Assembly (NCBI GenBank): GCA_017397835.1
Contig: JAFQHV010000038.1
Coordinates: 1-50,584 of the forward strand
DNA from: Oscillospiraceae bacterium
GTDB lineage: Bacteria > Bacillota > Clostridia > Oscillospirales > Oscillospiraceae
DNA: 50,584 bases
Direction: 5' to 3'
Shown: positions 6,578 through 42,974 of the stretch, one piece after another
How the letters are laid out: every line of letters starts with the position of its first letter
Numbering within the stretch: the stretch's first letter is position 1
Made by a program: the position numbers and the translations under genes
The notes under the pieces: model-generated
The model's database searches: none
The model's input: only the letters and a program-made list of their open reading frames with translations
Told to the model about the DNA's origin: nothing

Positions 6578-9500
6578 ATGGTGCGAACAATGAAACGACT
6601 GACGGCCTGGCTATGCTGTATGGCGCTGCTGGTCACGCTGCTGCCTGTGGCGGTAATGGCTGCGGACAGCCCGTTGTCTGCATCTAAATTTATTCGCAGC
6701 GGTGTTTTAACCCTGACGGAAGACACGCAGTTGTCCGCCTTCGGTGCAGCGTTAAGAACCAAAGGCAAGTATACACTAGATTTGAATGGTCACGTTCTGT
6801 CCGGCCCGGAGGCACCCTATATTAGTGTTGGAACCGGTGTTACGTTGACCATCTTGGACAGTGCCGGTGGTGGCGAGATTCGTGGTATCGAGACCGGTAC
6901 CTGCATGATTGACGTGCAGTGGGGTGGCAAGCTGGTGCTGGAGAGCGGCACTCTGACCGGCCACACCAGCACCACCAAGGGCGGTGCCATCTACAACGCC
7001 GGCACGGTGGAAATCAAGGGTGGCACCATCTCGGATAATACTGCTCATATGGGTGGCGGTATCTTTGTGGAGGAAAATTCCACCACCTTGATTTCCGGTG
7101 GCGTGATTACCGGCAACGTTTCCACCCGTCGTGGTGGTGCAATCAGTACAGCGGAACGAAATCTGCCTGACGAGAGTGTTTACCCCGTGGTGGAAATCAC
7201 CGGCGGCGACATTACCGGAAACAAGACCATGGAGCGGGGTGCCACCCTGTACCTGCACACCACCAAGCTGTCCATCAGCGGGGGTAAGATTGGTTACGGC
7301 TACCTTTGGGATACGGCCAAGTCAGCCTATGTTTCCGCGGCCGGAGGACAGGAGAGCTGGCTGCGGGGCAGCATCATCACCCTCAGCGGCGGCACGCTGG
7401 AAGAGGCGGCGGTCCGTCCCGAAAACGGCGGACACAACACCTACCTGACCATCACCGGCAAGCCTGTGGTGGACAGTCTTGCCGTGAGCCTGACCGCGGG
7501 CGACAGCACCACGGTCAGCAGCGTGGAAAATCTGGTTGGCGGCGCGTACGTCAAGTCCTCCGCCCAACTGACGGTGGCGGAGGGAGATACCTCGGTCAAG
7601 GCCAGCGGAACCTATATCTACGAGGCGTCCGCTTCCGCGCCCTCCGGCGAGCCGGTTTTGCCCATCACCAACGTAGTCATGCAGCCGGGCAGCGACATCA
7701 CCCAACGCAACTTCACCTGGTTCTCCCAGAGCGGGGAAACGGGTTACATCACCTGCGCCAAGACGGAGCAGATGTACAACGGCGGCTTCCCGACCTACGC
7801 GGTGAAGGTGGCGGCCACCCGGGATGGGGACAAGTCCCTGCGCCCGGGCTTCTACAACAATAAGGCAACCATCTCCGGACTGGAACCCGGCACCGAATAC
7901 AGCTATCAGCTCTCCAACGGCAGCGACAGGAGCGAGATTTTCACCTTCCGCGTGGGGGAAAAGTCGGACGAGTTCAGCTTCCTCTTTGTGGGTGACCCCC
8001 AGTTGGGTCAGCCGTCCAGCCCTTTGTTCCGGCAAAAAGAGGGCTGGGACCGTACCCTGAACCAGCTGACCACCGACCCCACCTTTGCCGACGTGGATCT
8101 GTGGGTGGGCGCCGGTGACCAGGTCACGGCCGGTGCCGACCACGATGCCCACGCCAATATGTACGACGCGTTTTTGAATAACCAGTGGATGCCCTCCATC
8201 CTGTACAGCAGTGCCGTGGGCAACCACGATGACGGCTCCAAGGGTGACCACTTCCAGCATTTCAACGAGACGGGCTATATGATTAACCCTGCCACCGGGA
8301 AGTACTACGGCTGGACCCAGACCTCCGGCGATACCAACCTGGTAGGTGCCGACTACTGGTACACCTACAACTCGATTTTGTTCGTGTGCCTGAACGTGAA
8401 CGATATGTCCTGGGGCAGCACGGCCCAGGCTCATGCCGGCTACCGCGGCCCCGAAAATCAGAAGCTGGCGCAGTATCATCTGGAATTCATCGACAAGGTG
8501 CTGGAACTGAACCGTGACAACAAGGACATCAAGTGGAAGATCGTGGTCTATCACGAGTCGCCCTACGGTGCCAGCTACCACAACAACTTCACCCGGGACA
8601 GCGCCGGCGAGTATTCCGCCCGACCCGAGCAGTACATGTTCGTGGATATGCGCCAGTACCTGCTGCCCGGCATTGACGAGCGCGGCTTTGACGTGGTTCT
8701 GTCCGGCCACGACCACGTTTACACCCGCACTCACGTAATGGACCATTCCGCGAACAGCACCAACGGCCTGTATTACGGCAACGAATCGGTTTCCGCCCTG
8801 GAAAATACGGCGGAGGACGGCGCCAACTACTACACCTACGCCGACGGAACCACCAGCCCTACCTATGTGAGCTGGACCGACCTGAACGGCGTGACCCACA
8901 CCAACACCAAGCTGGCCTCTGTCCCGGTGAAGGTCACGGCCCCCACCGGCGTGCTGCACATCACCGCCTCGTCCAGTTCCGGCTCCTCTCGCAACGCCGA
9001 CGACTACATCCATCCCATGGCGCTGGTCACCGTGTCCGGCAAGGAGGTGGACCGTCAGGTGGTTCTGGTGGAGGTCACCGATAACACCCTGACCTTTACC
9101 AACTACGCGCTGGGCTCCACCATTGAGGATTATGTGCTGAGTGAGAACGTGCTGGACACCTTCACCATCGAGAAGGCTCCCGGTGCGGACAAGCCGGAGG
9201 CATCCAAAACCTTTGCCGACACGGTGGGTCACTGGGCGCAGAAGGCCGTGGACTATGTGGTGGCCAACGGCATCATGAGCGGCTACAATGCCGATAAGTT
9301 TGGCCCCGACGATACGCTGAACCGCGCCATGATGGTGCAGGTTCTGTACAATAAGGAGGGTCAGCCTGCCCTGAACGGGGCCACCCACAGCTTCAAGGAT
9401 GTCCCGGCGACCCAGTGGTTCAACAACGCGGTCACTTGGGGCAGCAACCGGGGCGTGGTCAGCGGCTTTGGCGGCGGCCTGTTCAAGCCCGAGGATGCGG

Positions 9501-9730
9501 TGACCATCGAGCAGGTGGCGGTCATTCTCCGCAACTACTCCGGTTCGCCCAACGGAAACGGCGATTTGAGCCGCGTGGGCAGCTACAGCGACTGGGCGGC
9601 GGATGCCCTGCGCTGGGCGGTGGAAACCGGTCTGCTGGAGGGAGTCCCCTTCACCAACGCCACCGAACAGGCCACCCGCGCCCAGACGGCGCAGATTTTA
9701 ATGAACTTCAGCCAAATGAATGGGAAGTGA
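6578..9730 (+). CDS. Secreted SLH-anchored beta-helix/purple acid phosphatase-type metallophosphoesterase
   Basis: Cell-surface protein of 1050 residues. A signal peptide (MKRLTAWLCCMALLVTLLPV, cut near AVMA-AD) is followed by a right-handed beta-helix region (about 60-300) of Gly-rich rungs such as GGAIYNAGTVEIKGGTIS. Next are a purple-acid-phosphatase N-terminal Fn3-like domain (about 362-460, ISGLEPGTEYSYQLSNGSD) and a metallophosphoesterase domain (about 465-830). The metal motifs are present: GDPQ, GAGDQ, GNHDD, VVYHES and SGHDH. Three SLH repeats (about 878-1050, FADTVGHWAQ onward) should hold it on pyruvylated wall polymer. The substrate is unknown; phosphate esters or phosphorylated wall or host polymers are possible. 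GGAGG precedes the ATG; the next gene starts 10 bases after the stop. Confidence 0.88.
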   Translation: MVRTMKRLTAWLCCMALLVTLLPVAVMAADSPLSASKFIRSGVLTLTEDTQLSAFGAALRTKGKYTLDLNGHVLSGPEAPYISVGTGVTLTILDSAGGGEIRGIETGTCMIDVQWGGKLVLESGTLTGHTSTTKGGAIYNAGTVEIKGGTISDNTAHMGGGIFVEENSTTLISGGVITGNVSTRRGGAISTAERNLPDESVYPVVEITGGDITGNKTMERGATLYLHTTKLSISGGKIGYGYLWDTAKSAYVSAAGGQESWLRGSIITLSGGTLEEAAVRPENGGHNTYLTITGKPVVDSLAVSLTAGDSTTVSSVENLVGGAYVKSSAQLTVAEGDTSVKASGTYIYEASASAPSGEPVLPITNVVMQPGSDITQRNFTWFSQSGETGYITCAKTEQMYNGGFPTYAVKVAATRDGDKSLRPGFYNNKATISGLEPGTEYSYQLSNGSDRSEIFTFRVGEKSDEFSFLFVGDPQLGQPSSPLFRQKEGWDRTLNQLTTDPTFADVDLWVGAGDQVTAGADHDAHANMYDAFLNNQWMPSILYSSAVGNHDDGSKGDHFQHFNETGYMINPATGKYYGWTQTSGDTNLVGADYWYTYNSILFVCLNVNDMSWGSTAQAHAGYRGPENQKLAQYHLEFIDKVLELNRDNKDIKWKIVVYHESPYGASYHNNFTRDSAGEYSARPEQYMFVDMRQYLLPGIDERGFDVVLSGHDHVYTRTHVMDHSANSTNGLYYGNESVSALENTAEDGANYYTYADGTTSPTYVSWTDLNGVTHTNTKLASVPVKVTAPTGVLHITASSSSGSSRNADDYIHPMALVTVSGKEVDRQVVLVEVTDNTLTFTNYALGSTIEDYVLSENVLDTFTIEKAPGADKPEASKTFADTVGHWAQKAVDYVVANGIMSGYNADKFGPDDTLNRAMMVQVLYNKEGQPALNGATHSFKDVPATQWFNNAVTWGSNRGVVSGFGGGLFKPEDAVTIEQVAVILRNYSGSPNGNGDLSRVGSYSDWAADALRWAVETGLLEGVPFTNATEQATRAQTAQILMNFSQMNGK

Positions 9731-12700: not shown

Positions 12701-13544
12701 GTACCTGCTGCCCGGCATCTATGACCGGGACTTCGACGTGGTGCTGTCCGGTCACGACCACACCTACACCCGCAGCCACATCCTCAAGCACGAGGCGGTG
12801 GACACCGACAGCCTGTACTACGGCAACGAGACGGTTACCCCCTTTGAGAACACCTTTGGCAATAACTACTACACCTATGCCGATGGCACCACCAGTCCCA
12901 CGTTTGTGAACTGGAGCGACTCCAACGGCGTGGTGCACACCGACAAGAAGACCGCCAGCCTGCCGGTCAAGGTGACCAACCCCGACGGCGTGCTGCACAT
13001 CACCGCCTCCTCCAGCTCCGGCTCCACCAACAACGCCGCCGTTCATGAGCATCCTGCGGTGGCGGTGGTGCACTCCGGCCGCGAGCCCAAGCGTCAGGCC
13101 ATTCTGGTGGAGGTCACTCCCACCACCCTGACCTTTACCAACTACGGTCTGGGTACCGCCAACGAGGATTACGTGCTGGCGGACAACGTCATCGACACCT
13201 TCACCATCGAGCGGGTGGAGGAGCAGAGGGGCACCGTCACCGTGGAGCAGGGGGCCAACGGTACCATCAGCGTGGATAAGACCGAGGGCGCTTACGGCGA
13301 AACGGTCACCGTTACCGTCAAGTCCGACTCCGGCTACAAGCTGAAGGAGATTTTGGTGGACGGCGCTGCCATTGCGGGAAAAACCTTCGCCATCAGCGGC
13401 GACCACATGGTTACCGCGGTGTTTGTTGAGCGCGGCGACGAGCCGCTGCTGGGCAGCTTCAGCCTGCAGGTCATCAAGACCATTACGCTGGAGGGCCAAA
13501 CGGTGGATATTTGCCGCTGGGTCTGGACTCCCTTCGAAGACTGA
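9741..13544 (+). CDS. Secreted beta-helix/metallophosphoesterase paralogue with ICRWVWTPF tail
   Basis: Paralogue of the preceding protein (1267 residues, same signal peptide style CCMALLVTLLPA). It has a longer beta-helix (two arrays, about 60-600), the purple-acid-phosphatase Fn3-like domain (about 660-755) and the metallophosphoesterase (GDPQ near 766, GNHDS near 845, SGHDH near 1003). Unlike its neighbour it has no SLH repeats. After the enzyme comes a divergent InlB-like repeat (VEQGANGTISVDKTEG, YGETVTVTVKSDSGYKL, about 1165-1230) and then a 32-residue tail containing LGSFSL and ending ICRWVWTPFED, shared with the 43171 protein. GAGG lies 7 bases before the ATG at 9741. It probably forms an operon with the 6578 gene. 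Confidence 0.87.
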   Translation: MRTCMKKLTAMLCCMALLVTLLPAAATPALAAEGTELTATSGNLNAGSYYLSGDLTLTGSLSVKSDVSIDLNGHTITMPTSVDKSMFVISADGELTVKDTGTGGTMQFGTTTSGAPGVNVTGKFTLESGTITGWKRASAGGAVYLNAGATFTMNGGSITDCEATYAGAVRAAGAGATFTMNGGTITGNNCSNATNYSVVDLRGTADGAAVLNVNGGTISGNTWGGAAYTAGGSEIYCRDTVTTITGGTLGHIYSLLNKLSTGDKLAISGKPVIAGVCVKDTDNTPATITKLVEGASITAHNTVFETDDTVVVNGSVYTYGVKEPAASDALDFSADSSIKLSADVTTGGISLTTAGNYVLDLNGKTVNGTKAPYITIGSGVTLTVRDSAGGGKIKGMSTSAAMLKVAAGGKLVLASGTLTGHTNSGNGGAVYNAGTFEMTGGTISGNTAKYGGAILVDKGSVTNISGGTITDNRATYRGGALSTPDATVADEALQPVINISGGSITANRADNNSSTMYIYTSKVTISGGIMGYGGKLNATTGKYDDGDGAGDIWIRGSVLTITGGKMDDLATRPDTNFNFTLNISGNPEIEAAYPAFTVGNFTTTATVGTLTSGAYIKSNTEIPVAADAKNVHVTSGTKGWFYRCATDNVDDAVTTTDAITNVTIQPGADETGRNFNWFSTSDAAGYITYAKAADLVDGVMPANAAKVAAEREVSLKPGYYHNKASVVGLEPGNEYAYQLSNGSDVSPVYTFEVEQKSDTFNFAFVGDPQLGQPHIPIARQVDGWSRTLGQLTGDPVFAGIDLVVSAGDQITSADANDDGVTNSTMYNAFLNHEEMTGLTFAPMLGNHDSWTRGEHYQQFNAPGYMVNPATGKYYGITENYGMTNSADYWFVYNSVLFVCLNVNDFVYGGAATHTQAKRDQNKQTAEYHLEFIDKVLELNEDNEDIQWKVIVYHESPYGSSYHGNFTQNADGLYEERPEQHMFVDMREYLLPGIYDRDFDVVLSGHDHTYTRSHILKHEAVDTDSLYYGNETVTPFENTFGNNYYTYADGTTSPTFVNWSDSNGVVHTDKKTASLPVKVTNPDGVLHITASSSSGSTNNAAVHEHPAVAVVHSGREPKRQAILVEVTPTTLTFTNYGLGTANEDYVLADNVIDTFTIERVEEQRGTVTVEQGANGTISVDKTEGAYGETVTVTVKSDSGYKLKEILVDGAAIAGKTFAISGDHMVTAVFVERGDEPLLGSFSLQVIKTITLEGQTVDICRWVWTPFED

Positions 13545-18738: not shown

Positions 18739-18773
18739 AAAAAGGCCGTTCCCCATGGGGAACGGTCCTTTTT
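18739..18773. terminator. Bidirectional terminator between livF and the AAC(3) gene
   Basis: Stem AAAAGGCCGTTCCCC / GGGGAACGGTCCTTTT around AT, with T runs on both strands, placed between convergent genes. Confidence 0.85.
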
Positions 18774-19614
18774 ATTGCTCTTTGGGCCAAACGGTCATGC
18801 TGCAGTCGTCTACGTCCAGCAGCCATTGGATCCATTCGGGGTCGGTCACGTCGGTGTAGACGGTGGGTTCGTTCAAAATCAGCTCCAGCAAGGTGTCCAC
18901 GAAGGTGCGGACATCAATGGTCTGAAACGTGGCGCTGCCGCAGGGGGCGGACAGCAGCTGCCCCCGATCCCGGAACAGGCACTCGCAAATGGAGTCCTTC
19001 AGACGCCACTTGAGGGAGGGGAAGAAGGTGTGCTGGCGGGGGTCGTTATAGGCGGTCAGCACCGCCAGTGCCTCCGGGTGCTTTTCCACCACCTTTTCTG
19101 CTGCCACGTATTCCGCCAGATGGCGGTGAGTTCCGGTGAGGGTGCTGGTGCCTACCCACACGATTTTGCCGTCGTAGTCGTACAGCTTTTGCCAGGGGGA
19201 GGAGTGAGAAAAAGCCCATGGGCCAAAGGCACCGGGACGGGGACCGTAGCCGTCGTGCTCGCAGGTCAGCGCGTGAGCCAGTTTGCCCCGGGCGGCCAGG
19301 GAATGGGTGGGGTTGTCGCTGCGCAGTGTGCCGGGCATGGTACGGAACACCTCGGTGATATACCCCACCTCGGAGGGGGTGGTGTCCCGTTCCCAAATGT
19401 CAAAGGCGATGGAGTAGCTTTCGCCCAGCAGGGTGGGGACGGACACGGTGCCCTCGGGCCCCACCTGCTCCAAAAACGCGTCGATGACGGTCCGGGCGCC
19501 GCCCTCCACGGTGCCCATGCTCTTCAGGGAGGAGTGAAAGACGACGGTGTCCCCCTCTTTGATGCCCAGTTGGGTCAGGGTGTTTTTAATGTCCTGCTTG
19601 GTCACGACGGCCAT
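18772..19614 (-). CDS. AAC(3)-family N-acetyltransferase
   Basis: Protein of 280 residues in the aminoglycoside 3-N-acetyltransferase family (Antibiotic_NAT), which moves acetyl from acetyl-CoA to an amino group. Family landmarks are DTVVFHSSLKSMG near the start, GTVSVPTLLGESYS, SEVGYITEVFRTMPGTLRSD followed by NPTHSLAARG, and WVGTSTLTGTHRHLAEY in the second half. Many chromosomal gut members have no shown resistance role, so its substrate (aminoglycoside, amino sugar or other amine) is open. The ATG at 19614 has AGGAGG upstream. It is a single gene on the strand opposite to its neighbours. Confidence 0.85.
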   Translation of the reverse strand: MAVVTKQDIKNTLTQLGIKEGDTVVFHSSLKSMGTVEGGARTVIDAFLEQVGPEGTVSVPTLLGESYSIAFDIWERDTTPSEVGYITEVFRTMPGTLRSDNPTHSLAARGKLAHALTCEHDGYGPRPGAFGPWAFSHSSPWQKLYDYDGKIVWVGTSTLTGTHRHLAEYVAAEKVVEKHPEALAVLTAYNDPRQHTFFPSLKWRLKDSICECLFRDRGQLLSAPCGSATFQTIDVRTFVDTLLELILNEPTVYTDVTDPEWIQWLLDVDDCSMTVWPKEQ

Positions 19615-30456: not shown

Positions 30457-30637
30457 TATCGGTAATTGTTCGAATAGATTGCGTTTTTGGCACTCGTGTG
30501 CGGAGGAATGATAAAATATCGCAATAAATGCAATGTAGTTGACAAAATCTATATAGCGGGTTAGCGGTTTTTAGTGTAAAATAAATAGCATAGTGAAACA
30601 CACAGGAAGAACCCACTCTACTTTAGGAGGAACAGCG

Positions 30638-33600
30638 ATGAAAAAAGCAATGTCTTTCCTGCTGGCGCTGATCATGGTTGTGTCCATGGTCCCCGGCACC
30701 GCCCTGCCTGCTGCGGCGGCTGAGGCGGAACCCCTGCAGGCTTATTACACCAACGAAAACGTGTCGGTGGACGGCGCGCTGCGCGAGGAGCACTGGCTGC
30801 TGCGGGATAAGATCGGCAGCACTCCCATCGCCCTGCTGAACGCGCAGAACGCCCTGTACATCGCTCTGAAGACCGAGGAGAAGGTCATTGACGTGACCGT
30901 CAGCGGCAAGACCTTCAAGGTGGATCTGGCCGCCGGTGCCGTGATGGCGGGCGGCGAAAAGATCGGCGTGGCTGCCTTTGATATGCAGAACGGCACGTCC
31001 GAGATCGAGATCCCCATGACCGCCCTTGGCCTGACCTACAGTGTGGGCCGTGAGGTGGACTTTGCCATCACTGCGGGCACAGACAGCTACAACGGCAAGC
31101 TGATGTTGGCAGAGAAGGCGGTCAAGCTGGCCGAGAGCTTTGACGACATTACCAAGCTGACCAAGGGCGGCACCACCAAGTTCGGCGGCTCCACCGCCGA
31201 GGTCTACGCCACCCAGGGCGAGGGTGGCTCCCTGCACATCCAGACCGGCGATATGACCGACAACGGATACTCTTTCCATCAGCCCAACTGGGTGGCCGAA
31301 AAGCTGGGTATGGACCTGAGCCGTGGCTACGAACTGTCCTTCACCGCCGACTTCAACGACCTGAACGTGCCTGCCGCGGACAATGTGGCCCATCAGGCCA
31401 TCGTGGGCTTTGCGGTGGACGTGCGCGCCGAGGTCTATCTGCGCCACAGCTTTACCGCCGACAAGAACGGCAACCTGATGGTCAGCCAGTACGAAAACAC
31501 CGCCGACCAGACCAAGGTCATCGACACCGGCTACGATCTGCCTGCCAAGGACCTGTTTGTCAAGTTCGTGGTGGACGATAACTTCAACGTGGACGTGCAG
31601 ATCAACGGCAAGAGTGTGGCCAAGTTCGGTCAGACCACCCGCCGGGTGGCCGCCGGCACCGTGATGTTCAGCACCTGCACCGGCCGCCGTGACCTGTCCA
31701 GCCCCCGCAAGAACGACGTGGCCGTTTACGACCTGCTGATCACTCAGGCGGCCCCCAGCGAACAGGTGACGGTGAACACCATCGCCAACGCGGACGACCT
31801 GAAGCTGGACGGCGCCACCTCCGAGGTGCTGTGGTCCATGCCCTACACCGTGGGCGGCACCCGCTACGGTCTGCTGTACGATGCGGAGAACCTGTACATC
31901 GCTCTGAACACCGACAAGTCCCAGGTGGACTTTACGCTGGGTGAGCAGAAGGCCACCGCCAAGCTGGGCAAAAAGCCTACTGTGGCCCTTGGCTTTACCA
32001 TGGGTCCCACCATTGCCACCGACGGCAAGGGCGGCTATGAGATCACCATTCCCCGGAACCTGCTGAAGGTGGAGGGAAAGATCCCCTTCTCCATCACCTC
32101 CGGTGACGAGACCCGAAGCAGCGACCTGACGCTGGGCAACACCTCTCTGTCCGTGGTGGAGAAGCAGATCACCTCCGGCGACGGCAAGCAGGATGCCATT
32201 GCCTACCTGAACACCGATAAGGTGACGATGGACGGCAAGCTGAAGGAAAACCACTGGTACACCCCCTATGACACCCAGGGCGCCGCCGGTACCATCGCCA
32301 CCGGCGCGGGCTTTATGTGGGACGCCAACTATCTGTATCTGGGCGCCCAAATGTTCAGCGCCAGCCGCCCCGAGGCCATGAATTTGACCATCAACGGCAA
32401 GAGTATGTCCGCCGACATCTCCGCCAACACCGCCACTGTGGGTGACGTGATGGGCGACGGGCAGACCATGGAGTGGCGTATCCCCCACGCCGAGCTGGGC
32501 CTGACGGCCGGCAACGGCGTGTCCGCCGACTATAAGCTGGAGGTGGTGGGTGCAAACGGCACCTCCACCCTCTACGGCAAGCTGACCATGCAGGCCGTGG
32601 TGGTGGTCTTTGGCGACACTTGTGACGATATCAACGCCAAGGACTACTCCGTTGCCAACAACAAGCTGGCCGGCACCGAGGTGGTGCAGGGCACCGGCGT
32701 GTACGACATTAACACCAAGGATGGATTCACCGGCAACGAGTACTATCAGATGCACACCCCCCTGCTGAACTACGAGGGCGGTGCCTATGAGTTCGTTATC
32801 GACCTGACCGTGGAGTCCCTGCCCCACAACACCCGCACCCTGGGTTGGCGCGGCCTGAACTGGGAGATTCGCCAGCCCGGCCTGCAGACCCGCTTCTGCC
32901 TGCGCAGCGACGGCAACGGCAACGTCATGATGGACGTGCTGAACCGCCGTGACTCCGCTGCGCTGGATACCGGCATCGACTTTGGCGAGCGGGCGGTCAT
33001 CCGCTTCTCCGTGGACGACAACCTGAACCCCACTCTGTACGTCAACGACAAGATGGTGGGCGGCTTCCCCGCGCTGGACCGTACCGCTTTTACCATCAGC
33101 GATAACCTGCACATGCCCCGCCTGATTCTGCAGGCCATGAACTACGACCGCGACCCCGATGCCGACGGCAAGCTGAACGGCCTGAACGTGGAGGTTCACG
33201 ACATGCTGTGGACCCAGACCGTGTTTACCGACGCCCGCGGCGCTGCCGAGAGCGCCATGGAGACCGTCACCGAGAAGAACCTGCTGCTGGGCGCCGACCC
33301 CGAGGACGTGACCAAGCTGTATCTGGTGAAGTCCATTTCCGACACCAATACCGGCGTGACCAGCACCGTCACCTGGAAGGCCATCGACAAGGCCACCGGC
33401 AAGGTGGCCGCCAACGTGAACACCGAGACCGGTGTCATCACCCGCGGTGACAAGCCCCTGTACTTCGATCTGATCGCCACCGTGACTTACGACGGCGTGG
33501 GCGTGTCCAAGACCTTCACCTTCCAGACCAAGGGCACCAAGAACCTTGGCTCCGTGGGCCTCATTACTTGGGACAATGACCCCCGCACCGGCCACCCCGA

Positions 33601-36600
33601 GAGCTGGGGCGGCAGCAGCTTTGAGTACTTTGACAACACCCACAACAGCCTTGTGGTGGATCAGGGTTCCTCCAAGCAGTTCAACACCATCACCCTGTAC
33701 GACTTTGACGACGTGTCCCGTGTCAACAAGCAGCATTTGAGCGTGTACGTCAGCAACGACGGGAAGACCTATACCAAGGTCTACAACTGGCTGCTGCATC
33801 AGGACGGAAAGGCCTATACCATCTACAACCTGAGCGAAACCGCCCGCTACGTCAAGGTCCACAACCACCACGACGATTTGGACGAGATGGGAAATAAGCC
33901 CAGCTTCTACAACGCCGTGGCCGACATGATGACCGTCAGCAACAACCCCAATTTTGTGGGCGCCAACGGCGGCTTTGCCCACAAGGCGGATTATAAGGTC
34001 AGCAATCCCACCGGCAAGGCGGTGAAGGACTATCCCGTTTTTATCAGCCTGACGGATCTGGGCGCAAAGACCGGTGAGTACAAGGCCGACTGCACCGACT
34101 TCCGCTTCACCATGGGTGAGAATTATTTGGCCTATTGGTACAACGGGGTGGACGGCTTCTACGTCCGTATTCCCGACATGACCGCCGGCGGCGCCGCCAC
34201 CGTCACCGCCCACTGGGGCTGCGCCTCCGCCGCCGACTTCTCCGACGGTGAGAGTGTGTTTGAGGTGATGTACGGCAACATTACCATCACCGACTTTACC
34301 CGTGACCACAATCTGGGCTCTCACGGCCGTCCCGTCACCATGCCCAACGGCGACATCATCGTGGCCGGCCGTACCGCCGATACCCGGGGCAACACCGGCT
34401 TCGTCCGCTCCACCGACGGCGGCCGCACCTTCAGCACCGTGCCCGAGTTCGTTATGCGCGACAGCGACTACTCCGGTCGTGCCCTGGGCTTCGGCGGCTT
34501 CCTGGTGGACGAGGAGATCGGCCGCGTGTGGGCCATTTCCTACAGCGGCAAAAACCTCAAGGACGGCAGAACCGAGTACCGCCTTGTCATTAGCTACACC
34601 GACGACAGCGGCTACACCTGGTCCAAGCCCGTGTTCCTCACGAACCCCGCTTTGGAACCCGTTCAGGATAACGATGCCATGCTGGAAAACGCCGATCCCA
34701 ATGTCATTTACTCCCTGACCTACTGTAACGGCATCAAGCTGCGGGATGCCGACGGCAAGGGTCCCAATGTGGACTATGTGCTGGCCGGTAACGGCACCAA
34801 CCACGTGACCAAGTATAACTGCACCCAGGTTTACTACTCCAAGGACGGCGGCGAGAGCTGGGCCTGCGGCGAGAATGTTTACATGGATCTGGACGCCAAG
34901 TCCAACGCCGAGAACGGCGTGACCGAACCCGCCATTACCCAGCTGGATGACGGTCGCCTGTATATGCTCATGCGCGCCCAACAGGAGGGTAACTTCTACT
35001 TCTACGAGGCGTTCTCCAGCGACTACGGCGCCACCTGGGAGGCCGGGTATTCCAAGGTCATCGCCTCCAACACCTCTCCCGTTATGACCACCTACAACAA
35101 CCAGCGCATCCTGCTGTGGACCAGTATGAACAGCGTGGGCGCCTTCTCCTATCGCCGCACCCCCGTCCACGTGGCCACCACCAGCGACAACTACAAGAGC
35201 TTTGACCACATCGTGGACGTGGTCTTCGGCACCTCTTACGACGGTCTGGAAGAGATGTACAGCCATATGTTCCAGCCCGGCATCACCTTCACCAAGGACG
35301 GCAAGGATGCCTACGTGGCCTTCTACGCCGGCAGCCAGCTGCGCCGCTTTACCGAGCCGGCCACCGGCGGCTTCCTGGCTGAGGACTTCCAGGATATGAT
35401 CAACTACACCAAGGGCGGCTACGACGACTTTGAGGTGGCCAGCCTGAAGTTTGAGGGCTGGATGACCGTGGACGGCGTTGTGCTGGAAGTGAGTGAGGAT
35501 GCGGCTGTCTCCGGTCAGCGGTCCTTGAAGCTGTATGACCGCAATCCCGGTTCCATTGTCCACACCACCCGTCAGATTCCCTCCATGAAGTACGGCACCG
35601 TGGGTGCCAAGATGATGGTGCCTGCCACCAACACCGATTACTTCGCTTTGGAGCTGAAGGCCGGTTACAACTTCGAGCATCTGCAGCATGCGCTGGCGGC
35701 CGTTGCCGTTAAGGGCGACGGCACCGTGGCCGTCTGCTATGCCGACGAGATTGTCCCTGTTGGTAAGGTGGAGCCCGGCACCTGGAACGACTACGCCGTC
35801 AGCTTTGACATCGCCAAGAACATGGGTAAGCTGTATGTCAACGGCAAGTTTGTCAGCGACATCAAGCTGAACACCAGCGCTCCTCTGCTGGACAAGATGG
35901 TGGAGGACATCATCCGCGAGGTCACCTGTATCCAGTTCATGCAGACCGAGGCGACCACCGGCACCAGCGACGTGCTGTACGTGGACGACGTTTATTTCAA
36001 CGAGCTGACCGCACCCCTGAGCCGCACCGGCGCCGAGTCCGGCGGTCTGACCCCCGTGGAGCCGCCCAAGGAAGAGCCTGAGGACGAACTCACCTTCGCC
36101 GACGTAAAGACCGGCGACTGGTTCTACGACGCGGTCGCCTACGCCACCGCCAACGGCATTATGAGTGGCTACAGCGCCGACAAGTTTGGCCCCAACGACA
36201 CCCTGAACCGCGCCATGGTGGTGCAGCTGCTGTACAACAAGGAGGGCCAGCCTGCTCTGAACGGTCTGAAGCACAGCTTCTCCGACGTGCCCGCTTCCCA
36301 GTGGTACAACAACGCAGTCACTTGGGGCAGCAACAAGGGCGTGGTCAGCGGCTACGGCGGCGGCGTATTCAAGCCGGAGGATGCTGTGACCGTCGAGCAG
36401 ATCGCGGTCATCCTGCGCAACTACTCCGGTTCGCCCAACGGCAACGGAGATCTGTCCAAGGTGGGCAACCACAGCGATTGGGCCGCCGATGCTTTGAAGT
36501 GGGCGGTGGAGAAGGGTATTCTCAACAACGTGCCCTTTACCAATGCCACCGAGCAGGCCACTCGCGCTCAGGCAGCGCAGATGCTGACCAACTATCTGCG

Positions 36601-36610
36601 CGCCAACTGA
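30638..36610 (+). CDS. Giant SLH-anchored Asp-box (sialidase-like) multidomain surface protein
   Basis: 1990 residues. A signal peptide (KKAMSFLLALIMVVSMVPGT) is followed by CBM9/DOMON-like modules (about 30-130, 380-500 and 520-640, each starting like DGxLxExxW or DGATSEVLW) and LamG-like jelly rolls (about 150-380 and 660-860). A discoidin-like domain (about 970-1090) precedes a beta-propeller (about 1208-1590) with four Asp boxes: STDGGRTF, TDDSGYTW, SKDGGESW and SSDYGATW. Another LamG-like module follows, then three SLH repeats (about 1818-1990). Asp boxes and GRPVTMPNGDIIVAGR fit an exo-sialidase or related glycan-binding propeller; I could not confirm the Arg triad. AGGAGG lies 7 bases before the ATG. 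Role: cell-surface capture or cleavage of host sialoglycans (inference). Confidence 0.8.
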   Translation: MKKAMSFLLALIMVVSMVPGTALPAAAAEAEPLQAYYTNENVSVDGALREEHWLLRDKIGSTPIALLNAQNALYIALKTEEKVIDVTVSGKTFKVDLAAGAVMAGGEKIGVAAFDMQNGTSEIEIPMTALGLTYSVGREVDFAITAGTDSYNGKLMLAEKAVKLAESFDDITKLTKGGTTKFGGSTAEVYATQGEGGSLHIQTGDMTDNGYSFHQPNWVAEKLGMDLSRGYELSFTADFNDLNVPAADNVAHQAIVGFAVDVRAEVYLRHSFTADKNGNLMVSQYENTADQTKVIDTGYDLPAKDLFVKFVVDDNFNVDVQINGKSVAKFGQTTRRVAAGTVMFSTCTGRRDLSSPRKNDVAVYDLLITQAAPSEQVTVNTIANADDLKLDGATSEVLWSMPYTVGGTRYGLLYDAENLYIALNTDKSQVDFTLGEQKATAKLGKKPTVALGFTMGPTIATDGKGGYEITIPRNLLKVEGKIPFSITSGDETRSSDLTLGNTSLSVVEKQITSGDGKQDAIAYLNTDKVTMDGKLKENHWYTPYDTQGAAGTIATGAGFMWDANYLYLGAQMFSASRPEAMNLTINGKSMSADISANTATVGDVMGDGQTMEWRIPHAELGLTAGNGVSADYKLEVVGANGTSTLYGKLTMQAVVVVFGDTCDDINAKDYSVANNKLAGTEVVQGTGVYDINTKDGFTGNEYYQMHTPLLNYEGGAYEFVIDLTVESLPHNTRTLGWRGLNWEIRQPGLQTRFCLRSDGNGNVMMDVLNRRDSAALDTGIDFGERAVIRFSVDDNLNPTLYVNDKMVGGFPALDRTAFTISDNLHMPRLILQAMNYDRDPDADGKLNGLNVEVHDMLWTQTVFTDARGAAESAMETVTEKNLLLGADPEDVTKLYLVKSISDTNTGVTSTVTWKAIDKATGKVAANVNTETGVITRGDKPLYFDLIATVTYDGVGVSKTFTFQTKGTKNLGSVGLITWDNDPRTGHPESWGGSSFEYFDNTHNSLVVDQGSSKQFNTITLYDFDDVSRVNKQHLSVYVSNDGKTYTKVYNWLLHQDGKAYTIYNLSETARYVKVHNHHDDLDEMGNKPSFYNAVADMMTVSNNPNFVGANGGFAHKADYKVSNPTGKAVKDYPVFISLTDLGAKTGEYKADCTDFRFTMGENYLAYWYNGVDGFYVRIPDMTAGGAATVTAHWGCASAADFSDGESVFEVMYGNITITDFTRDHNLGSHGRPVTMPNGDIIVAGRTADTRGNTGFVRSTDGGRTFSTVPEFVMRDSDYSGRALGFGGFLVDEEIGRVWAISYSGKNLKDGRTEYRLVISYTDDSGYTWSKPVFLTNPALEPVQDNDAMLENADPNVIYSLTYCNGIKLRDADGKGPNVDYVLAGNGTNHVTKYNCTQVYYSKDGGESWACGENVYMDLDAKSNAENGVTEPAITQLDDGRLYMLMRAQQEGNFYFYEAFSSDYGATWEAGYSKVIASNTSPVMTTYNNQRILLWTSMNSVGAFSYRRTPVHVATTSDNYKSFDHIVDVVFGTSYDGLEEMYSHMFQPGITFTKDGKDAYVAFYAGSQLRRFTEPATGGFLAEDFQDMINYTKGGYDDFEVASLKFEGWMTVDGVVLEVSEDAAVSGQRSLKLYDRNPGSIVHTTRQIPSMKYGTVGAKMMVPATNTDYFALELKAGYNFEHLQHALAAVAVKGDGTVAVCYADEIVPVGKVEPGTWNDYAVSFDIAKNMGKLYVNGKFVSDIKLNTSAPLLDKMVEDIIREVTCIQFMQTEATTGTSDVLYVDDVYFNELTAPLSRTGAESGGLTPVEPPKEEPEDELTFADVKTGDWFYDAVAYATANGIMSGYSADKFGPNDTLNRAMVVQLLYNKEGQPALNGLKHSFSDVPASQWYNNAVTWGSNKGVVSGYGGGVFKPEDAVTVEQIAVILRNYSGSPNGNGDLSKVGNHSDWAADALKWAVEKGILNNVPFTNATEQATRAQAAQMLTNYLRAN

Positions 36611-37766: not shown

Positions 37767-40700
37767 ATGAAACACACAATGTTCAGTAAGGTGCTGTCCG
37801 CACTGCTGGCGCTGGTGCTGTGCCTTGGCATGGTGCCCGCAACGGCCATGCCCGCCGCCGCGGCTGCCAACCTGGGCAGCAAGGAGTGGGTCGCCCGGAA
37901 CGACGACTTCAGCGGCTACCCCGTGGGTACGGATACGTTCTACGGCAACGCCAAATACAACGGCTTTGGCGAGAGCAGTCACGGTACCTACGGCGGCGAA
38001 AGCTACGCCACCTACGGCATTATCGAGGAAAACGGGAACAAGATGCTGGAGCTGGTCAGTGTCAACAAGACCGGCACCTACTTCAACGGTCCCCGTGTCT
38101 CCGGTGCCCATTCCGTGACCATGGACGTGTATATGCCGCGTTCCACCGGCGGCTCCGTTCCCGGTCTGGTGCTGAGCCTGTTTGACGGCCTGCAGCCCAG
38201 CCTGCCCGGCAGCCTGCTGGTCTATATCGACGGCGGTTACGATATCCGCCTGGTGGAGAGCATCTCCACCGCCAGCACCACCAAGGCCAACGTGACCACC
38301 ACCATGCAGAAGGCAGACGGCAACCGGATGGCTTTGGAGCTTGATTCGTGGCACACGGTGAAGATGTCCGTGGAGCCGGGCAAGTTCGTGGTCAAGGTGT
38401 GGAAGCAGGGCGAGCAGGAGCCGGCGGACAACGCCGGGGCCGGCGTGTGCGTGTTTGAAAACGCCGTGTTCTCCGAGTCTATGCTGAACGGCAGCATGAT
38501 GGCCCGTATCCAGTCCCGCGCCCGCAATCAGGCCGGCGTGGCCTATAAGGTCCGCATCGACAACCTGAAGGTCACCAAGCCCTATGAGAGCGTGACTCTG
38601 CCCAAGATGCTCTACGGCGACCCCGGGGAGCGGCTGACCGTGGACGCGGTGTTCACCGGTCAGGACCTGGCTGCCCAGATGCCCGCCCCCAAGTTCAGCT
38701 ACACCTTCTCCAACCCCGCTCTGGGCAGCGCTTCCGGCAACGGTGACCTGATCCTGGGCAAGGAAGGTCAGGGCACCCTTACCATTGAGCTGGCCGATAT
38801 GGACGGCAAGGGCACCGGCGTGACCCACACCGCCAAACTGGTGGTGGGCGGCAACGCGGTGTTCAAGTTTAAGGACGCTCTGGTCAAGGTGCCCGAGACC
38901 GACATCGGCAAGACCTATAAGCTGGAAACTGTGACCCAGTATGACCTGAATCTGGCCATCCCCGGTCACTCCATTACGTGGCTGTCCAACAACGAAACCG
39001 TTGCCACCGTGGATCAGACCGGTGTGGTCACCCTTAAGGATTTCGGCACCGCCAAGATCACCGCCATGGTCAAGGATTCCGCCGGCAACGACGTGGGTCT
39101 GATCGCCAGCTGCAAGGTGCAGGTGGGCGAGGAGCCCCTGCGCATCCTGTCCATCGGCAACAGCTACAGCCGCGATACCTTCTACTACCTGAGCCATCTG
39201 GCCAAGCTGGTGGGTAAGCGCGTGGAGGCCGGCTACCTGATGCTGGGCAGCGCTACCCTGCGTATGCACGCCCGAAACGTGGCCAAGAACGCCGCCGAGT
39301 ACAGCTACTACAAGAGCAATCCCATGACCGGCGAGATGCTGGGCAGCTCCGGCATGAGCAGCATCAACGAGACGGTCCTCAGCCAGGATTGGGACGTCAT
39401 CATGCTGCAGCAGGGCGTGGAGGAGTCCGGCGTTTACACTACCTTCAACGCTGACCTGCAGTTCCTGCTGGACTATTTGGCCGATGTGCAGCCGAACGCC
39501 AAGGTCTATTGGAATATGACCTGGGCCAACCAGGCGGACACCAAAGAGCGCAGGGCGGATTTCGACCACCTGTTTGACGGCAACCAGAACGTGATGTACA
39601 ACGCCATTGTGGAGTGCTTGGGTCGCTTCATCGTGGGTAAGGATGCCGAGTACGCCGACGACTTTGATGGTTGGTTCCCTGTGGGTGCCGCCATTCAGAA
39701 CGTGCGCGCCACCGCCATCGGTGACAAGCTGACCCGTGACGGCTACCACCTGTCCCTGCAGGCCGGTCGCCTGACCGCGGCAATGACGGCGCTGAAGGTG
39801 CTGTTCCCCGATGCCGACCTGTCCAAGATCACCCCCGAGGCGATCAAGCCCTTCCTTGACACCGATAAGAAGGATTTGAGCACCAGCTTCCCCGACGACC
39901 CCAACTACGCCAACACCGAGGCCAATTTGGCTCTGATCCGTCAGAGCGTGGAGGCCGCATGTAAGGACCTGACCAAGGTCCCCGCCAAGCTGAAGGTTCC
40001 CACCCCCCGCACCGTGGAGAACACCACCCCCGAGACCGATGACGTGACCGTGGGTCAGGTTACCGCTCCCATGGGTCTGCACTTTGGCGACCTGGTGGTG
40101 GACAAGGCCGGTGTCATCTATACCACCGCCTATGAGTGTATCTGTCATGTGCCCACCCGTAACACCGGCGACTACAAGCAGGACGGTAAGGAGGGTGCCG
40201 GTATTCTGCAGATTTGGAAGAGTACCGACAACGGCAAGACCTGGGACTATGACCACCCCCTGCTGACCATCGACCAGCGCAAGTACGAGGAGTGGGGCAT
40301 CGTTCCCGATATGTACAACCGCTATGAGAAGGTGAGCAACGGCGCGGACGACTACACCTACTTCTTCGATGGCCGTGACCCCAACATGGGCATCATGTAC
40401 TACGACATGGATGGCAACGGCACCGAGGATGAGGTGCTGCTGTACACCTTCTGGGGCTTCCAGTTCCTGGAGTCCGGTGCTTCCAACTCCGAGGGTACCT
40501 ATCTGATGTACTCCATCGACGGCGGCGAGAACTGGACGGTGCCCCAGCGTGTTACCACCCAGCATTGCCCCGGCAACGGCGGTATCAAGCGCGGTGATAT
40601 CACTTACTTCTCCAATGGTCAGATTCTGGTGCCTCTGTACGGCACCCCCACCGTTGTGGCTCTGTTGCTGCAGTGGGATGTGGCCACCCAGAAGTGGGTC

Positions 40701-42974
40701 ACCCTCAGCGACGTGGTCATTCCCAACTTCGTTCCCGAAAAGGGCGCTGAGATGAACGAGTGTTCCTTCGTTGCTCCCGACCCCAATGGCGACTATGTGG
40801 AGGGCTTTGTTCGCTCCAACGGTCAGGTTGTGGCATCCCATGACCGCGGCCGCACTTGGGAGCATATCCACACCATTGCGTACAACGTGCAGCAGCCCGG
40901 TTGGGCCTACATCGACGAGAACCGTGCCTTTGCTACGTGGGCCTTTCTGGAGGGTTATGTCCGTCCCACCAAGGGTCAGATGGTCTACTTCGATGCCGGT
41001 TGGGAGGCTACCCAGCCCGCGGTTATTCACAACCACTACTACACCGGTGAGCACGACAACGGTGACCCCTCCAGCAAGCTGCTGGCCGATGGTCGGATTC
41101 TGTCCATCATGTACGATGACTACTTCCGCTCCATCGTGGGTAAGTTCGTCGATCCCAACGATTCTGCCTTCCTGCTGCCTGAAATGGATCCCAAGGCCGG
41201 GCAGATTACCGTGAAGGAAGTTGCCGGTGGTGCCAATGTGACCATCGGTGATGACCTGCCCTTTGCCCACACCCTCAACACCACTGCGACCTTTGCGGCC
41301 AATGGTAAGCTGACTGTCAATGCTGCCAACGGTGCCGTGGTGGAGTTTGCAGTGGGTCAGTACGGCATCGAGGCCGGCAAGGCCACCGAACTGCGTGTGG
41401 CCATCACCAATGGTGCCACCTACCTCAAGGCATGGCCTGTGGGCGGTACCGAACCTGCTGAGTGGACCTTCGTTCAGGGCGGTACCGACCAGATTAGCGG
41501 CAAGGCGGTTCTGACTGCCAGCGGTGTGGAGATGGGTACTGTAAAGGTTACCCGCCGCGCCACCATCACCATGAACAAGGGCGGTGAGACCGAGTCCGGC
41601 AAGGGCGCCGTGGCCGGTGTCATCAACCCTGCTGAGCTGAACAACAAAGCCACCTGGACCAGCAGCAATCCCAAGATTGCCACCGTGGATGGCGAGGGCA
41701 ACGTTTTCTTTGTGGGCTCCGGTACCGTGACCATCACCGGTGAGATTGCCGGTGCGACCGGTTCCGTTACTTACAACGTCAAGTCTGCCCCTGCTGAAGT
41801 AATTGGCCGCGGTGAGAAGAAGGTTATTTTCCAGGATAACTATGAGAGTTACACTGTGGGCGAGAACACCTTCTACAACGAGATGTCCGGCAAGGGCTAC
41901 GTGGGTATTGAAAGCCAGGCGCCTGTGGCCGGTGTCAGCTACTACAATGTGGAGCAGGAGGGCAACAACAAGTACTTGAAGTTGGTGGCCCGCAACTCCA
42001 AGCAAGTTTGGTTCAAGGTGAATACCCCCATTACCGGTGACTACACCGTACAGTTTGACTATCGCAACACGGACGGTAATATGGACCGCTGGATGTACGT
42101 CACCCTGTGGCAGGACACCGACGTCTACGGCTTTGTCCAGATGCGTGGTGACAACTTCCGCTTCCAGTACAAGGACAAGGATGGTGTTAACACCAACTCC
42201 GATACCTTCTACGCTTACGATGCCGCAGTCTGGAACACCATGAAGATTGCCCGTGTCAACGGTGCTGTGTATGTCAAGGTGTGGCCCCGCGGTACTCAGG
42301 AGCCTGCCGGCTGGCAGTACAGTGTGCATGCAGATACGCTGCCCACCGATGTGGAGAGTTATTTCCGTATTTCCTTCTACTCCAAGCTGAACGAGGACCA
42401 CGTCACCCTGCTGGATAACCTCATCATCACCCAGCAGCAGGTCAGCGGCGCCGACGCCATGACCGACGTGGGCAGCGGCGACTGGTACTACGATGCGGTG
42501 GACTACGTCATCAACAACAAGATCATGTCCGGCTACAACGCCTCGACCTTCGGCCCCAACGATACCCTGAATCGCGCCATGGTGGTGCAGGTGCTGTACA
42601 ACAAGGAGGGCCAGCCCGCCCTGAACGGTGCCAAGCACAACTTCAAGGACGTGCCCGGTACCGAGTGGTACAACAACGCGGTCACCTGGGGCAGCAACAA
42701 GGGCGTGGTGTCCGGCTACGGCGGCGGCGTGTTCAAGCCCAACGATGCCGTCAGCCTGGAGCAGGTGGCGGTCATCCTCCACAACTACGCCGGAAAGCCC
42801 GCCGGAAACGGCGACATTTCCAAGTTCGGCGCGTGCAGCGACTGGGCCCAGCCCGCCCTGAAGTGGGCGGCACAAAAGGGCCTGTTTGACGGTATGGAGT
42901 ACGGCTCCGTCACCGCCAGCGCCACCCGCGCCCAGACGGCTCAGATGCTGACCAATTATCTGAGCGGAAACTGA
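37767..42974 (+). CDS. SLH-anchored DUF4886 (SGNH esterase) / Asp-box propeller fusion protein
   Basis: 1735 residues. A signal peptide (LSALLALVLCLGMVPATA) is followed by a jelly-roll module (about 33-280, WVARNDDFSGYPVGTDTF), a BIG2-like Ig domain (about 370-455) and a DUF4886/SGNH-type domain (about 460-710). That domain has block I IGNSYSRD (Ser466) and the terminal dyad RDGYHLS (Asp658, His661). An Asp-box propeller follows (about 760-1150; STDNGKTW, SIDGGENW, SHDRGRTW) with a calcium-loop-like DMDGNGTEDE, then Ig-like and LamG-like modules and three SLH repeats (about 1565-1735). A sialate O-acetylesterase plus sialidase-like function on O-acetylated host sialoglycans is a reasonable inference. 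AGGAGG lies 7 bases before the ATG. Confidence 0.8.
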   Translation: MKHTMFSKVLSALLALVLCLGMVPATAMPAAAAANLGSKEWVARNDDFSGYPVGTDTFYGNAKYNGFGESSHGTYGGESYATYGIIEENGNKMLELVSVNKTGTYFNGPRVSGAHSVTMDVYMPRSTGGSVPGLVLSLFDGLQPSLPGSLLVYIDGGYDIRLVESISTASTTKANVTTTMQKADGNRMALELDSWHTVKMSVEPGKFVVKVWKQGEQEPADNAGAGVCVFENAVFSESMLNGSMMARIQSRARNQAGVAYKVRIDNLKVTKPYESVTLPKMLYGDPGERLTVDAVFTGQDLAAQMPAPKFSYTFSNPALGSASGNGDLILGKEGQGTLTIELADMDGKGTGVTHTAKLVVGGNAVFKFKDALVKVPETDIGKTYKLETVTQYDLNLAIPGHSITWLSNNETVATVDQTGVVTLKDFGTAKITAMVKDSAGNDVGLIASCKVQVGEEPLRILSIGNSYSRDTFYYLSHLAKLVGKRVEAGYLMLGSATLRMHARNVAKNAAEYSYYKSNPMTGEMLGSSGMSSINETVLSQDWDVIMLQQGVEESGVYTTFNADLQFLLDYLADVQPNAKVYWNMTWANQADTKERRADFDHLFDGNQNVMYNAIVECLGRFIVGKDAEYADDFDGWFPVGAAIQNVRATAIGDKLTRDGYHLSLQAGRLTAAMTALKVLFPDADLSKITPEAIKPFLDTDKKDLSTSFPDDPNYANTEANLALIRQSVEAACKDLTKVPAKLKVPTPRTVENTTPETDDVTVGQVTAPMGLHFGDLVVDKAGVIYTTAYECICHVPTRNTGDYKQDGKEGAGILQIWKSTDNGKTWDYDHPLLTIDQRKYEEWGIVPDMYNRYEKVSNGADDYTYFFDGRDPNMGIMYYDMDGNGTEDEVLLYTFWGFQFLESGASNSEGTYLMYSIDGGENWTVPQRVTTQHCPGNGGIKRGDITYFSNGQILVPLYGTPTVVALLLQWDVATQKWVTLSDVVIPNFVPEKGAEMNECSFVAPDPNGDYVEGFVRSNGQVVASHDRGRTWEHIHTIAYNVQQPGWAYIDENRAFATWAFLEGYVRPTKGQMVYFDAGWEATQPAVIHNHYYTGEHDNGDPSSKLLADGRILSIMYDDYFRSIVGKFVDPNDSAFLLPEMDPKAGQITVKEVAGGANVTIGDDLPFAHTLNTTATFAANGKLTVNAANGAVVEFAVGQYGIEAGKATELRVAITNGATYLKAWPVGGTEPAEWTFVQGGTDQISGKAVLTASGVEMGTVKVTRRATITMNKGGETESGKGAVAGVINPAELNNKATWTSSNPKIATVDGEGNVFFVGSGTVTITGEIAGATGSVTYNVKSAPAEVIGRGEKKVIFQDNYESYTVGENTFYNEMSGKGYVGIESQAPVAGVSYYNVEQEGNNKYLKLVARNSKQVWFKVNTPITGDYTVQFDYRNTDGNMDRWMYVTLWQDTDVYGFVQMRGDNFRFQYKDKDGVNTNSDTFYAYDAAVWNTMKIARVNGAVYVKVWPRGTQEPAGWQYSVHADTLPTDVESYFRISFYSKLNEDHVTLLDNLIITQQQVSGADAMTDVGSGDWYYDAVDYVINNKIMSGYNASTFGPNDTLNRAMVVQVLYNKEGQPALNGAKHNFKDVPGTEWYNNAVTWGSNKGVVSGYGGGVFKPNDAVSLEQVAVILHNYAGKPAGNGDISKFGACSDWAQPALKWAAQKGLFDGMEYGSVTASATRAQTAQMLTNYLSGN

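Follow-up and report, generated by a model that had tools for sequence, protein, structure and literature searches.

We identified a short C-terminal peptide, about 29 residues long, that ends proteins of four architectures in three Oscillospiraceae genomes and, in three protein families, stands where paralogues carry SLH repeats. Our preferred reading, to which we give about even odds (roughly 0.5), is that this tail is a lineage-specific C-terminal localisation module by which exported enzyme-like and repeat proteins are retained on the cell surface, in the SLH slot. The rivals to surface retention, taken together, account for about one half.

The tail came from the window, by which we mean the whole 50,584-nucleotide stretch analysed here (contig JAFQHV010000038.1), where it ends P0002 (LLGSFSLQVIKTITLEGQTVDICRWVWTPFED) and P0004 (TLGTFSLEVVNYITINGEEVAICRWVWTPFY). 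The initial annotation had aligned these two ends by eye without gaps and counted 19 identical positions. Recomputing the ungapped alignment gave the same figure, 19 of 30, against a maximum of 9 in 20,000 shuffles; the best ungapped 30-mer between the two protein bodies has 11 identities. The annotation had also held that the proteins share no other domain, and we find no Pfam domain common to both at E ≤ 0.1 and no alignment between them at E ≤ 1e-20. The paralogues upstream, P0001 and P0003, end in SLH repeats, with PF00395 passing alone in two stretches of each and a third repeat recognised by eye. The proposed arrangement, in which the upstream paralogue carries SLH and the downstream one the tail, holds for both window pairs but not as a rule: both gene orders occur, and the tail gene comes first in contig C32 of G012 and contig C6 of G000 (genomes are introduced below).

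Table 1. Positions of the genes, tails and related features discussed in the text; positions without a genome or locus prefix are those of the window.
Feature	Position	Strand	Content or basis
P0001, metallophosphoesterase paralogue	6578..9730	+	SLH repeats at end, about 9209-9727
P0002	9741..13544	+	signal-peptide-like start, Pur_ac_phosph_N and Metallophos, InlB-type repeat, tail; without SLH
P0002 C-terminal tail, 32 residues	13446..13541	+	translation; profile match E 1.5e-20 (the tail is itself in the profile); 19/30 identical to P0004 tail
P0002 tail core VDICRWVWTP	13503..13532	+	SIG489 orthologue has the same residues at 10/10, with 4 synonymous codon changes
Aminoglycoside 3-N-acetyltransferase family member (PF02522)	18772-19614	-	by family name
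Five paralogues of ~550 aa	19732-29418		by shared start; the three tested match GH20 and the GH20C C-terminal domain
P0005, ~2000-aa BNR protein with SLH	30593..36610	+	Pfam, alignment, end classification
P0003, DUF4886/BNR paralogue	37767..42974	+	SLH repeats at end, about 42465-42971
P0004	43171..48708	+	signal-peptide-like start, DUF4886, BNR, Big_2, linker, tail; without SLH
Pro/Glu-rich linker between preceding domains of P0004 and tail	48547..48612	+	read directly from translation
P0004 C-terminal tail, 31 residues	48613..48705	+	translation; genome and profile searches
P0004 tail core VAICRWVWTP	48670..48699	+	translation
Metallophosphoesterase carriers			P0002, P0014
DUF4886/BNR carriers			P0004, P0013, G014 fragment P0015, shorter P0012
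~2000-aa BNR/LamG carriers			P0007, P0008
LRR_5 carriers			P0010, P0011
P0010	L007:7494-10715		N-terminal Cys/His region, by eye cysteine peptidase-like; Pfam names none at E ≤ 0.01
Eleventh tail copy, G000 contig C42	L006:9587-9847		adjoins, by eye, an apparent nucleoside phosphorylase gene
Second PF04230 copies	G000:C17:23011; G012:C38:33969; G014:C16:33124

Searching the window's own genome (G000; 1.84 Mb, 96% complete) with one tail as query gave five places, and a profile built from these five tails was then run on 64 genomes of the genus. The tail is present in 11 copies: five in G000, five in G012 (the Oscillospiraceae MAG SIG489, 87% complete) and one in a third congener, G014. Of the 64 genomes, 8 had matches at E ≤ 0.1; the six weak matches in five of these (E 0.014-0.097) were discarded as alternative frames of other genes, so that G000, G012 and G014 remain. 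Relatives of P0002 and P0004 (E ≤ 1e-30) are likewise confined to these three among the 64 genomes. Wider sampling covered 400 genomes of the family, 394 of the order, 391 of the class and 398 of the phylum, in overlapping sets that each contain G000, and gave two matches outside G000 for the family (E ≤ 0.01), one for the order (E ≤ 0.01), three for the class (E ≤ 0.003) and none for the phylum (E ≤ 0.001). One of these (L030) lies inside a 704-aa frame that is read otherwise, another (L031) falls, by eye, in a gene and alternative frame that also gave three of the genus matches, three further matches are copies of a single 68-aa frame that runs past the motif, and in L035 no motif was seen. 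We found no convincing copy of the tail outside the three genomes, either in the genus (n = 64) or in the family, order, class and phylum samples. A scan of genome contigs with one peptide pattern, which may leave out the window's own records, had SIG489 as its sole source of confirmed matches (4 loci). We rejected a phage or plasmid origin, as none of 36 pattern stretches in viral contigs was confirmed and no plasmid or phage match was obtained. The motif strings are absent from the open-licence library of papers searched, and PADLOC returned nothing for P0002 or P0004.

The initial annotation had allowed that the motif might be found only in the orthologues of its two proteins. Instead, ten of the 11 copies sit on four architectures (metallophosphoesterase, DUF4886/BNR, ~2000-aa BNR and LRR_5; Table 1), and the eleventh belongs to a gene remnant. 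The G014 fragment P0015 has no Pfam match and was assigned to DUF4886/BNR by homology. The eleventh copy closes, with its tail intact, an 86-aa reading frame that matches the C-terminus of P0011 at 72% identity over 82 residues; no credible LRR part was found in the 15.7 kb fetched, and the frame looks like the 3' remnant of a P0011-like LRR_5 gene. All nine carriers whose N-terminus is in hand begin with a signal-peptide-like hydrophobic stretch, judged by hydropathy alone, and none of the ten carriers has SLH or another wall-binding domain in Pfam. The tail thus occurs several times per genome (5, 5 and 1 copies) on exported-looking proteins of four architectures with nothing else in common, as short C-terminal homology domains do. 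In G000 the BNR family has 11 full-length proteins of ~2000 aa (10 ending in SLH and 1 in the tail) on contigs C1, C6, C22, C25, C26 and C35 that amount to about 66 kb, or 3.6% of the 1.84-Mb genome; SIG489 and G014 have somewhat smaller sets.

These carriers invite the idea of a small element for ligand binding, which might bind a glycan, say, through the two invariant Trp of the tail and aim the proteins at a substrate, not at the producing cell. Many carriers are BNR, DUF4886 or metallophosphoesterase proteins, and genes for GH20-type hexosaminidases, a DHDPS-family protein and a GDSL-type esterase also lie in the window. The stretch with the five ~550-aa paralogues, near which BNR, DUF4886, DHDPS-family and GDSL-type genes stand, looks like an amino-sugar or glycan utilisation region. 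However, the tail also ends LRR_5 proteins, in which Pfam detected no enzyme domain, and every carrier seen has just one copy, at its end. We hold out little expectation for this ligand-binding reading.

An argument for a localising role comes from the exchange with SLH. In the three families in which both endings occur, members were gathered with P0002, P0004 and P0009 as queries, and their ends were classified by two profiles, one for the tail and one for SLH, the latter made from five of the SLH ends in these families. Five of 50 entries were dropped because they are truncated at the 3' end (L008_3, which duplicates L081; L077_7536, the opening piece of the tail gene in G014; L088; L090; and L089, with partial SLH), and distant or partial matches, e.g. 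on G000 C31 and C37, G012 C19 and G014 C33, stand outside the classified set, as do the LRR_5 carriers. Among the 45 classified members, many of which are related and do not represent 45 independent events, 37 end in SLH, 8 in the tail, none in both and none in neither. The SLH members comprise 26 BNR, 9 DUF4886 (5 of them distant, at ~30% identity) and 2 metallophosphoesterase proteins, and the tail members 2, 4 and 2, respectively. In all three families, then, homologues of the carriers bear a different C-terminal device, and the suggestion that the tail occupies the place of SLH in paralogues is borne out.

The DUF4886 body tree points in the same direction, as the ending changed at least 2 times on well-supported branches. 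P0012, a short SIG489 tail protein, clusters with SLH bodies (97/97) and not with P0004; it shares 64-70% identity with three SLH relatives and ~60% with P0004 and P0013, and its alignment to the SLH relatives stops just before their SLH. The tail follows almost directly after the shared body in P0012 and in the BNR carriers. Between body and tail lie a repeat in P0002 and ~340 further residues in P0004, so in these two proteins the swap is not exact. The two tail-bearing BNR proteins (L008:6626-12673; L074:644-6745) are 39% identical to P0005 over the aligned part. We rejected a direct swap of a tail BNR gene for an SLH orthologue in G014, where the gene beside the same SDR gene is 40-41% identical to the tail BNR proteins, too little to establish orthology. 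Together with the other architectures, these comparisons lead us to infer at least 5 attachments of the tail to different bodies; the changes may have run in either direction.

Another possibility is that the tail has no general role and is a terminal segment that was copied between surface genes of one lineage and kept by descent, and its limitation to 3 of 64 genus genomes agrees with that. The codons bear on this possibility. In 54 of 55 tail pairs the third codon position is the least conserved, and the 60-base flanks on both sides show an ungapped identity of 0.08-0.43, the only exceptions being the upstream flanks of two orthologue pairs (0.62 and 0.80). We therefore conclude that between families the peptide is what is kept, and on the same figures we rejected a recombining DNA cassette. 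Within orthologue pairs the picture is different. In four orthologue comparisons the ten core residues are identical at 10/10, 10/10, 9/10 and 9/10 positions with dS of 0.75-1.73, and core dN is 0, 0, 0.12 and 0.04 against a body dN of 0.14, 0.20, 0.07 and 0.23. However, these proteins contain many other ten-residue windows of full identity (195/1248, 257/1824, 284/553 and 139/1995), so conservation of the core within these pairs is not special; being no better kept there than many other stretches, it speaks for mere descent. In three of the four pairs the N-terminal half of the tail, made up of the 19 residues that precede the core, has diverged more than the body. Against mere descent stand the core residues kept between families whose third positions have diverged and whose flanks cannot be aligned, and the fact that every classified member of the three families has one ending or the other. 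We regard a tail with no general role as improbable.

Five positions are invariant over the 11 tails (V21, I23, W26, W28 and P30) and three nearly so (F6, V10 and G18). The initial annotation described the tail as rich in Trp with one Cys. The two Trp are indeed invariant, but the Cys falls outside the invariant core, since the residues before the first Trp are C-R in nine tails and V-E in the two BNR tails. All 11 tails have the Pro 2-4 residues ahead of the stop; after WxWxP they end in FY, FED, VEG, TDK, GL, GL, YSE, LNKQ, LREL, IEE and VEE. The tail is strictly C-terminal and single in every case: against the 148 predicted proteins of the fetched loci, a set that held 9 of the 11 tails because the gene caller missed P0010 and the remnant, the profile gave the tails 50-69 bits and internal matches no more than 4.7 bits. 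A Pro/Glu-rich linker precedes the tail in the three DUF4886 orthologues; in the other carriers the tail comes after a repeat or where another domain ends. Given the alternating residue pattern and a turn-like N/D-G step midway along most tails, the fold is probably a two-stranded beta-hairpin with the core V-x-I-[CV]-[RE]-W-x-W-x-P.

The possibility that the tail is the last strand of a known domain was rejected as far as sequence searches of Pfam, NCBIfam and PDB reach. No tail matches a Pfam or NCBIfam model at E ≤ 10, a threshold to be read with HMMER filters that drop most matches above about 0.1; the best PHROGs value is 0.067, and the PDB sequences gave the tail profile a single 7-residue match at E 0.98. 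The SLH triplet (PF00395), which fills the same C-terminal slot in the same families, differs from the tail in having three repeats over about 170 residues, and we find neither a match of any tail to PF00395 at E ≤ 10 nor SLH in any of the ten carriers.

Short C-terminal sorting regions offer a second comparison. The LPXTG (PMC5817068), PEP-CTERM and GlyGly-CTERM (PMC1569441, PMC3237569) sorting signals resemble our tail as short C-terminal homology regions found several times per genome on otherwise unrelated exported proteins whose relatives carry other tails, but they are built of a motif, a TM helix and a basic end. The tail lacks this build, in keeping with what was first noted of it: no TM-like stretch occurs at the C-terminus of 10/10 carriers (19-residue Kyte-Doolittle (KD) hydropathy maximum 1.13 in the last 60 residues), and none of the 11 ends has a basic cluster. 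The tail may work like these groups, by analogy, but is not a member of them.

It could accordingly be asked whether the tail is a secretion or assembly signal for a dedicated export or processing machine, as in PEP-CTERM or GlyGly-CTERM. The short core close to the stop, its presence on several otherwise unrelated proteins of a genome and the relatives with another C-terminal device follow the general pattern given for those systems in PMC1569441 and PMC3237569. However, there is neither TM helix nor basic cluster nor NCBIfam match, no co-occurring machine was seen among the genes compared, and SLH relatives with similar starts do without the tail. We consider a sorting signal of this kind decidedly unlikely.

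Two other devices share features with the tail. The WxL domain (PF13731; PMC5817068) is C-terminal like the tail, with a Trp motif near the end (YxxxITWxLxxxP, the motifs lying within the last ~120-190 residues) and reported non-covalent binding to the wall; PF13731 has no match in the tails (E ≤ 10) or in the carriers.

Dockerin-type docking modules are small and exchangeable between enzymes, as the tail is small and exchangeable, but neither the tail nor its carriers have a dockerin match in Pfam.

A gene for an SLH protein is the immediate neighbour of six of the nine tail genes whose flanks can be judged. Four of these neighbours (those of P0002, P0004, P0012 and P0014) are on the same strand and of the same family; the G014 tail gene has an SLH neighbour of the BNR family on the same strand, and that of P0013 is divergent, with SLH within the same long frame. 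P0007 nearly joins them, as a same-family SLH gene comes next except for an intervening AraC-type regulator gene on the other strand, and P0008 lies at a contig end. This proximity would suit a C-terminal oligomerisation module, in which the hairpins of two or three chains pair to form secreted multimers or to join a tail paralogue to its SLH-anchored neighbour, and the strict C-terminal position, the alternating hydrophobic pattern and the aromatic core would suit strand pairing as well. Against it, family members that end in SLH manage without the tail, no SLH gene adjoins either LRR_5 tail gene (P0010 and P0011) in the stretches seen, and SLH genes of these families often stand in tandem anyway, which makes SLH neighbours weak evidence for pairing. 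We consider oligomerisation unlikely.

No receptor or partner gene was found among the neighbours or by comparing PF04230 and sortase genes. The pyruvyltransferase PF04230, which we take to be the CsaB family, has two genes in each of the three tail genomes and one in each of the three congeners tested. In G000 and G014 the second copy is flanked by shared polysaccharide genes (82.8% over 3.8 kb), but the G012 copy lies elsewhere without these flanks, and we dropped the second PF04230 as a partner of the tail. Sortase matches number 3 in G000, 3 in G014 and 0 in SIG489 (87% complete).

Returning to surface retention, we picture the tail after export folding as a hairpin, with a strand, a turn around N/D-G and a second strand V-x-I-[CV]-[RE]-W-x-W-x-P, whose Trp face would dock non-covalently on a surface receptor, either a wall polymer or an envelope protein. 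The tail would thereby do for its carriers what SLH does for their paralogues, holding them at the envelope by a different contact. As SLH anchoring seems intact in the three tail genomes (53, 45 and 46 SLH matches, and PF04230 in all three), the tail would provide an additional docking site, not a substitute for one that had been lost; by the same token there is no evident need for a second anchor, which counts against surface retention. The exchange with SLH would fit equally well a release from the wall together with another function. Tentatively, and at clearly less than even odds, we further propose that the tail is an undescribed, very short anchor without a TM helix, a ~29-residue Trp-core hairpin that replaces the ~170-residue SLH triplet and docks on its own receptor, with two subtypes (C-R and V-E) that may mark two receptor specificities.

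The devices by which Gram-positive bacteria attach proteins to the wall form a short list (LPXTG, SLH, CWB2, WxL, LysM and others; PMC5817068). If our reading is true, a ~30-residue stand-in for SLH in several families adds a wall-attachment device and points to a second envelope docking site, in a tail small enough to be examined directly as a fusion tag. It would also show that such devices can be restricted to few species and hence be missing from domain libraries. For these Oscillospiraceae, the pattern of endings suggests that proteins may be kept on the cell surface in a second way.
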